Assembly (NCBI GenBank): GCA_902533585.1
Contig: CACAMG010000006.1
Span: forward strand, 1 to 36,331
DNA length: 36,331 bases
Source of the DNA: an uncultured Pelagibacteraceae bacterium
GTDB lineage: Bacteria; Pseudomonadota; Alphaproteobacteria; Pelagibacterales; Pelagibacteraceae
Direction of reading: 5' to 3'
Of the stretch, positions 13,682 to 34,088 are shown in pieces. Position 1 is the stretch's first letter. Each line of letters begins with the position of its first letter. The position numbers were made by a program, and so were the translations under genes. The notes beneath the pieces are model-generated. The model had not been told where the DNA came from, did no database searches, and saw only the letters and a list, made by a program, of their open reading frames with translations.

Positions 13682-14455
13682 TTATATCTTAAATGAATCA
13701 CCAAAATATGCATTTCTTGCATTAACGTCTTTCATTAACTCCGATGGAGTTCCCTGTGCAATTATCTTACAATTAGATAAAACAATTGCCACATCGACAC
13801 ATAGAAGTAAATCTCTTGCTTGGTGATCACAAAGCACAATTCCCATGTTGTTTTCTGTTTGAAGATTTACAATTATTTGTTGCAATGTTTTAATTGTTAA
13901 AAGATCAAGTGCAGCAAATGGTTCATCAAGCAATAGTATTTTTGGATTACCCAAAAGAGATAAAGCGATTATCAATCTTTTTTTTTGACCTCCAGATAAA
14001 AATTTTGCTTTTATATTTGATACTGACTCCAGTTCAAATTTTGATATTAATTCATTTATTTTGCTTATTCTTAAATTTTTGTCACTAATTAAAATTTCTG
14101 CGATAGCTTGAAGATTTTCTTGTAAAGTAAGATCATGAAAATAACCTCCATGCTGAGGAACGTACCCAATTTTAAATTTATTAGTTCTAAGATAAATAGG
14201 ATAATTTGTAGCATCCGTATTGTTAAAAAAGATATTTCCGTAATTTGGTTTTACCAATCCAGTAACCAAATTAAATATTGTTGATTTTCCAGCACCATTA
14301 GGACCCAGCAACCCAAGTATCTCTCCTTGATTTATACTGAAAGAAATATCGTTTAATATTTGTCTTTTTCCATAAGAGAATGAAATTTTATTTAATTTAA
14401 CTAAAGGTCTATTTTTTTTAAAGGATTTAATTCTAAATTTTTTAATTACACCCAT
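13682..14455 (-). CDS. lptB: LPS export ABC transporter ATP-binding protein
   Basis: LptB is the ATPase that powers LPS extraction from the inner membrane by LptFG. The 257-residue protein has all ABC motifs: Walker A GPNGAGKST, Q-loop GYVPQHGGYFHDLTLQEN, signature LSGGQKKRL, Walker B ILLLDEPFAALD, and the switch histidine in CDHQARD. The absence of other domains, the glutamine-rich region GYVPQHG, and the position 4 nt after lptC identify it as LptB rather than a generic importer ATPase. In many relatives lptA lies between lptC and lptB; here there is no room for it. Confidence 0.93.
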   Translation of the reverse strand: MGVIKKFRIKSFKKNRPLVKLNKISFSYGKRQILNDISFSINQGEILGLLGPNGAGKSTIFNLVTGLVKPNYGNIFFNNTDATNYPIYLRTNKFKIGYVPQHGGYFHDLTLQENLQAIAEILISDKNLRISKINELISKFELESVSNIKAKFLSGGQKKRLIIALSLLGNPKILLLDEPFAALDLLTIKTLQQIIVNLQTENNMGIVLCDHQARDLLLCVDVAIVLSNCKIIAQGTPSELMKDVNARNAYFGDSFKI

Positions 14456-14459
14456 AAAA

Positions 14460-15053
14460 CTATTTACTAATAATTTTAACTTTTTTTTCTTTATTTAACA
14501 TAAGAATTTTAGAATTTTTTGTAATTAAGTCAATTTGCATTTTATCTGCAAAAAGTTTTGTATCATCATTCTCATATACTAATTTTTCTGATAAATTTAC
14601 TAAATTTTGATCAAAAAGTAGATCCAATTTTTCACAGGTTGCCCTATGTGAATCGTGGGAGAGTAAAATATTTTTTCTAAAGTTTGTATTATGATTTATA
14701 TTGTTATAGATTGCTGAGTCAGAATAAATATCAATTATACTCGAATCTGATAAATATATTTTTGCTTTAACGTTTTTCATTAGTATTAATTTAGGTTCAT
14801 CAAGATTTATTTTTCCTTCTTCAGAAGATATTTCAAATATATTTCCAGTAGAGTCTTTGGATGTATATTTTATATCTTTTAGGACATTATATTTTTCATT
14901 TTTATTAATTTTTTCAGTTGTAATATTATTTTCTATACTATCTTCTTTTTGATTTAAATCTGTAATTTGTGAAAAATATTTTTTATAAAAAAAAAATGAA
15001 AATAAAATTAAAATTAATACTAAAGTTATTTGTATAGCTATTTTATTATACAT
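14460..15053 (-). CDS. lptC: LPS export protein LptC (YrbK family)
   Basis: LptC is a bitopic inner-membrane protein that passes LPS from LptBFG to the periplasmic bridge. The 197-residue protein has one N-terminal membrane anchor (about residues 7-24, IQITLVLILILFSFFFY). The rest is a polar, beta-rich periplasmic domain with features typical of the OstA-like fold: KYTSKDSTGNIFEISSEEGKI and repeated D/N-rich strands such as SDSAIYNNINHNTNF. Sequence conservation is low, as usual for LptC, so context (abutting kdsD upstream, 4 nt before lptB) carries much of the assignment. Confidence 0.86.
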   Translation of the reverse strand: MYNKIAIQITLVLILILFSFFFYKKYFSQITDLNQKEDSIENNITTEKINKNEKYNVLKDIKYTSKDSTGNIFEISSEEGKINLDEPKLILMKNVKAKIYLSDSSIIDIYSDSAIYNNINHNTNFRKNILLSHDSHRATCEKLDLLFDQNLVNLSEKLVYENDDTKLFADKMQIDLITKNSKILMLNKEKKVKIISK

Positions 15054-22015: not shown

Positions 22016-22757
22016 ATGCCAAAAACATTAATTTTAATACCTTCAAGAATGGCAGCAACAAGATTGCCTGGTAAGCCATTATTAAAAATTGGAGGAATTA
22101 CAATAATTTCGAGAGTTTATCAAAAAGCTTTAGAAACAAAAATAGGAGAAGTTTTTGTTGCCACAGAAGACCAAGAAATATTTGATGAGATAGTTAATTC
22201 TGGTGGCAATAGTGTGTTAACTAGCAGTCAGCACAAAACTGGCACTGATAGAGTTTTTGAAGCTTACAAAAAACTGAATTTAAAAAATATCGACTATATA
22301 TTACTTATTCAAGGTGATGAACCAATGATAGATAAAAACGATGTAATTAATTTAAACAACAATGTTCTAAAAAATAAATCAAAAATTGGTACTCTCGCTT
22401 GTAAAATTAAAGAAAAAAGTTATTTTAATAATGAAAATATAGTGAAAGTTGAAACAGAAGATGTATTAGAAAATAAAAAAATATCTAAAGCAAAGAATTT
22501 TTTTAGAAAATCTATTGATTTAAAAAAACAAAAATATTTATCATCACATTGGAATTTATCAGTATAATGTTTCAGTATTAAAAAAGATTATATCTATGAA
22601 ACAAAGTATCAATGAAATTAAAAATAGACTTGAGCAGCTTAGAGCAATGGATAATAATATAGATATTGATGTTGTTTTAGCAAAATCATCATCTTTAGGT
22701 ATCGATACCAAAGAAGATTATATGGAAATAAAAAATTTAATGGAATATAAATCTTAA
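22016..22757 (+). CDS. kdsB: 3-deoxy-manno-octulosonate cytidylyltransferase, reading frame interrupted by a +1 shift at a poly-A tract
   Basis: KdsB activates Kdo as CMP-Kdo for LPS core synthesis. The first frame (22016-22567, 183 aa) has ILIPSRMAATRLPGKPLLKIGG, FVATEDQEIFDEIV and LIQGDEPMIDKND, then becomes unfamiliar (KQKYLSSHWNLSV) and stops. The next frame reads IYHHIGIYQYNVSVLKKI, NRLEQLRAMDNNIDIDVVLA and GIDTKEDYMEIK, ending with TAA at 22755-22757. This is exactly the missing KdsB C-terminus (family Y.HiGiY, LEQLR, GVDTpeD). The junction lies in a run of seven A (22522-22528) followed by C and five A; removing one base restores a 246-residue protein, the normal length. It is either a real frameshift, slippage, or a sequence error. 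pheA follows 4 nt after the restored stop. Confidence 0.9.
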
Positions 22758-33661: not shown

Positions 33662-34088
33662 ATGATTAAATATAAGCTTACTTGTAAAAATTGCTCCAAT
33701 GTTTTTGATAGTTGGTTTGCTTCTTCAAAAGAATTTGAAAAGCTAAAAAGACTAAAATATTTGAATTGTCAAAATTGTAAATCTACAAATATTGAGAAAT
33801 CTTTAATGTCACCAAATCTATTAAATACAAAAAAGGATACAAAGTTTATAACAAATAAAAAAATTAAAAAAATAAAAAACAAAATTAAAGAATATCAACA
33901 ATTTATAAAAAAAAATTTCCACTATGTGGGTGATAATTTTACATATGAAGCACGTTCTATACACTATAATAATAAAAATGAAAAAAAAAGGCATATATGG
34001 AAATGCAACGCAAGATGAAGTTCAAGAATTAAAAGAAGAAGGAATTGAAACAGAAACAATTCCTTGGATAAATGATAACGAAAACTAA
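33662..34088 (+). CDS. DUF1178 family zinc-ribbon protein, reading frame interrupted by a +1 shift at a poly-A tract
   Basis: DUF1178 proteins are small alphaproteobacterial/proteobacterial proteins of unknown function with an N-terminal zinc ribbon. Frame one (33662-34018) has YKLTCKNCSNVFDSWFASSKEF, CQNCKSTNIEKSLMSPNL, and FHYVGDNFTYEARSIHY, then ends with unfamiliar KKRHIWKCNAR. In the +1 frame the family's end is present: GIYGNATQDEVQELKEEGIE and PWINDNEN, with TAA at 34086-34088. The switch falls in a run of nine A (33981-33989); one A fewer restores a 141-residue protein, the usual size. The restored stop overlaps the ubiG stop tail to tail. A true mutation, slippage or sequence error are all possible. 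Confidence 0.85.

Follow-up and report, generated by a model that had tools for sequence, protein, structure and literature searches.

A single-base A-tract break in kdsB of a draft Pelagibacter genome, probably a homopolymer artefact

The stretch of DNA analysed here (the window; 36,331 nucleotides) lies within contig C6 of an 838-kb draft genome (G000), which comprises 50 contigs and is 67% complete. Judged by its relatives, the draft is a Pelagibacter (SAR11) genome, with a GC content of 29% in the 711 kb sampled. On the plus strand of the window, a kdsB gene is present in two pieces, with pheA downstream, as in relatives. The first open frame (22016..22567) encodes the N-terminal part, 183 amino acids that match NCBIfam kdsB/PRK05450, PF02348, and KdsB chains in the PDB, and contains the nucleotide-binding domain with IPSRxxxxRLPGKPLL and QGDEP. 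A variable linker between FFRK and YHHIGIY contains an A7-C-A5 tract (22522..22534), and a +1 shift of reading frame falls within ~22520-22538. The C-terminal part follows in the +1 frame (22536..22757, with the stop codon at 22755-22757).

Elsewhere in the window (13682-15053), lptB and lptC are 4 bases apart, and no lptA intervenes. All 14 sister-family genomes have an LptA-type short frame (LptD_N profile, 148-159 codons), whereas a search of 23 Pelagibacter-genus genomes, one of them complete, found no such frame; three of these have only weak matches in longer frames. By this comparison, the genus may lack LptA or carry a strongly diverged version of it.

The break in the kdsB frame is real as an observation. 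The preliminary description had the first frame ending at 22567 and the family's C-terminus running on in the +1 frame to 22757, and both profile and PDB matches bear this out. In profile searches, the KdsB homology of the first frame stops near residue 171 (at residues 168-176, or ~22519-22543), while the +1 frame stays open to 22757 and reads YHHIGIYQY...LEQLRAMDNN...GIDTKEDY. By itself, this second piece matches KdsB profiles at positions ~178-246 (E 1.9e-18) and KdsB chains in the PDB. The coordinates given earlier for the tract and the motifs named there agree with the sequence, and the arithmetic by which removal of one base yields a 246-residue KdsB is correct. The evidence for a split gene is the homology rather than the openness of the second frame, because an open stretch of 73 codons is unremarkable, occurring in 14% of random stretches. 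Both regions expected of the family are present: the nucleotidyltransferase domain with SRxxxxRLPGKPL and QGDEP in the first frame, and the Kdo-binding/dimer region with HxGIY, LEQLR, and the Mg-binding aspartate of G(I/V)DT, but the latter in the +1 frame. In place of a single open frame of ~245-250 codons, the first frame here yields 183 amino acids. The kdsB gene as such is ordinary.

Relatives of this gene were sought in 61 and then in 399 genomes, and all other same-genus KdsB matches listed (~150) consist of one open frame of 243-275 codons. A comparison of tract length across relatives, proposed in the preliminary description, reveals a hypervariable linker: in the loci of 59 relatives read across it, the longest A-run varies from 2 to 11, and every copy, including those with A10 or A11, remains in frame. 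Neither a conserved slippery site nor a shared out-of-frame arrangement was found across the linker of these 59 relatives. Because the A-run is unconserved and the A10-A11 copies are in frame, the linker does not represent a conserved slippage site. We also attempted the comparison at strain level, where the closest kdsB found was only 61-64% identical at the protein level and none was near-identical. The N-terminal part of the window's KdsB has a mean identity of 54.9% to 28 relatives (the relatives' median being 55.8%), and the C-terminal part a mean identity of 60.4% (median 62.0%). Measured in this way, neither half appears to be under relaxed constraint, and the break is either very recent or not in the organism at all, in keeping with the earlier view that decay is recent or absent.

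The kdsB break has company in the same draft, in the form of at least six more. The orthologs of G012, a genus member with a complete genome, were compared under strict settings with 711 kb of draft sequence. Six genes turned out to be frame-broken at A-tracts: sucB, a GcvT-like gene, pgk, a DUF1178 gene, an iron-type alcohol dehydrogenase gene, and umuC; kdsB, which the 50% identity filter of the strict run leaves out, is the seventh. Apart from pgk, sucB, and DUF1178, the genes were named by sequence recognition, and we tallied the events ourselves from the alignments. Apparent events at the N termini of ETF-QO and a transporter represent conserved upstream regions and were dropped after trimming to start codons. 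The DUF1178 gene is the second frame-broken gene of the window: its first frame (33662..34018, plus strand, 118 amino acids) is broken at an A9 tract (33981..33989) with one base in excess, the same direction as in kdsB, and its conserved C-terminal part, which is homologous to the unbroken counterpart in G012, lies in the +1 frame (33990..34086). The breaks in sucB, pgk, the alcohol dehydrogenase gene, the GcvT-like gene, and umuC lie at C8:10421-10428, C3:230-236, C10:6524-6534, C10:16920-16957, and C3:55436-55482 of the draft.

The breaks are scattered over unrelated conserved genes, and their frequency depends on tract length. Counted per sense-strand A-tract in aligned coding regions, the break rate rises from 2/776 at A7 (0.3%) through 3/179 at A9 (1.7%) to 2/64 at A10 (3.1%). 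Six of the seven breaks have one base in excess, which is a systematic bias in direction. Approximately 7 of some 460 ortholog pairs (1.5%) are affected. No second pgk copy was found in the draft, and the sucB paralogues there are of the pyruvate dehydrogenase E2 type only; true null mutations in these two genes would cripple central metabolism.

The same method applied to G012, whose complete genome is a single contig, identified three A-tract breaks. None was found in 400 kb of another genome (G106), and loci from some 60 further genomes, 245 kb in total, contributed one. Breaks are ~3.7 times as frequent in the draft as in the other sequence of the genus taken together (p 0.03), a modestly significant excess that is suggestive but not overwhelming. 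Outside the count of three, a break found separately in G012 splits waaA, the gene for Kdo transferase, at an A10 tract into a frame of 257 amino acids and a C-terminal frame (locus L070, 4243-5492, G012:C1, minus strand).

Kdo has been described as indispensable both for a stable outer membrane and for viability (PMC3149649). In KdsB, the two aspartates that bind the catalytic Mg (D95 and D219 in Aquifex) are located in different domains (PMC3149649), and these domains map onto the two halves here, QGDEP in the first and GIDT in the second. Neither kdsA nor waaA was detected in the 67% complete draft. Both are present in most relatives, and other incomplete relatives likewise lack them; because the two genes are so widespread in the genus, their absence is best attributed to incompleteness, and a genus-wide loss of the Kdo pathway can be rejected. 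The loss of Kdo raised as a possibility in the preliminary description finds no support. A search for a second, intact kdsB returned a sole other cytidylyltransferase match (contig C13), which is of the MobA/MocA type and lies beside XdhC-, MoaE-, and MoaC-like genes.

We infer a technical cause: the kdsB break is probably a one-base homopolymer indel artefact of the draft assembly, absent from the living genome. The indel would most likely stem from the way in which AT-rich DNA (29% GC) was amplified, sequenced, or assembled, in which case the living kdsB would be intact and make a normal CMP-Kdo synthetase. We favor this reading because the breaks are single-base, length-dependent, mostly in the same direction, and scattered over unrelated and essential genes of one draft. 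The whole copies in the listed relatives and the undecayed C-terminal half of kdsB also speak for it. Homopolymer errors have been reported in roughly 1% of genes in Illumina metagenome contigs (PMC3277595); the draft's 1.5% is near this figure, although the draft's technology may differ. Against an artefact, the kdsB tract is just A7, with errors infrequent per tract, and the complete genome G012 also has A-tract breaks, such that some breaks in the genus may be real. The main rival, which we regard as somewhat unlikely, is a real and very recent replication-slippage mutation, private to the cell or strain, that inactivated kdsB. Judged from its sequence, the 183-amino acid product would be inactive, as it would lack the C-terminal domain with the GIDT Mg-binding aspartate, the Mg ligands being split between the two halves (PMC3149649). 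The break is unambiguous, A-tracts readily mutate in vivo too, and a recent mutation would leave conserved sites without decay; kdsA and waaA are missing from the draft as well, but this fits its incompleteness, other incomplete relatives lacking them too. Such a mutation would, however, have to be joined by similar ones in single-copy pgk and in sucB, would run against the described need for Kdo (PMC3149649), and is matched by no other broken copy among the genus matches listed.

The artefact reading also has to be weighed against a genomic break that is tolerated, with RNA polymerase slippage on the A-tract, or less likely a +1 ribosomal shift, providing sufficient full-length KdsB. Several A-tract breaks in well conserved and essential genes of one AT-rich genome, similar breaks in complete G012, and a precedent in Blochmannia (PMC3017870) would all suit such a rescue. 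Nothing specific speaks for it here, possible as it is, and we consider it unlikely: the tract is a short A7 interrupted by a C and is unconserved, relatives with A10-A11 at this position are in frame, and six of the seven breaks would need a base to be lost from the RNA, the rarer direction of homopolymer slippage (PMC5574713). In Buchnera RNA, homopolymers account for 151 of 157 insertions, against 16 of 57 deletions, and the same transcriptome-wide study saw no restoration of frame (PMC5574713). The preliminary description left error, null mutation, and slippage open; the break and its location stand, but slippage special to kdsB is not supported, given the unconserved tract, the absence of a break in any inspected relative, and the like breaks in other essential genes. 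The broader proposal that free-living SAR11 carry genuine A-tract breaks (kdsB, pgk, and sucB; waaA in G012) tolerated via polymerase slippage seems to us quite improbable, and our literature searches turned up no SAR11 frameshift reported to be rescued by slippage. It is barely credible that the two halves are translated independently and then combine into a functional split KdsB. Both do keep their conserved residues, but in the second frame no ATG precedes HHIGIY, the first one (~22596) lying inside the domain, and kdsB is split in no relative examined.

Overall, the kdsB break is most likely not a real biological feature. A lone A-tract break in a SAR11 draft is no ground for concluding Kdo loss or recoding, because apparent breaks of this kind affect ~1-2% of comparable genes in the present draft. 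Were the breaks genomic, slippage tolerance, proposed so far for insect endosymbionts, would be notable in the ocean's most abundant bacteria.

Compared with known systems, the locus corresponds to the KdsB family (3-deoxy-manno-octulosonate cytidylyltransferase; TIGR00466, PRK05450, and PF02348) in that both halves match in the right order, with motifs and neighborhood as in relatives. It departs from the family in having a single frame break, in the linker between the halves, and in that the first half alone falls under the equivalog cut-offs. In Blochmannia and Buchnera, correction of poly-A frameshifts by transcriptional slippage has been proposed (PMC3017870), and the draft resembles these endosymbionts in being AT-rich with A-tract breaks in conserved, essential genes. 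Unlike there, the break occurs in no inspected relative, and the A-tract of kdsB is both shorter and interrupted. The pattern is also like that of homopolymer errors in draft genomes and metagenome contigs (PMC3277595), with one-base A-tract breaks in ~1-2% of genes that become more frequent with tract length.
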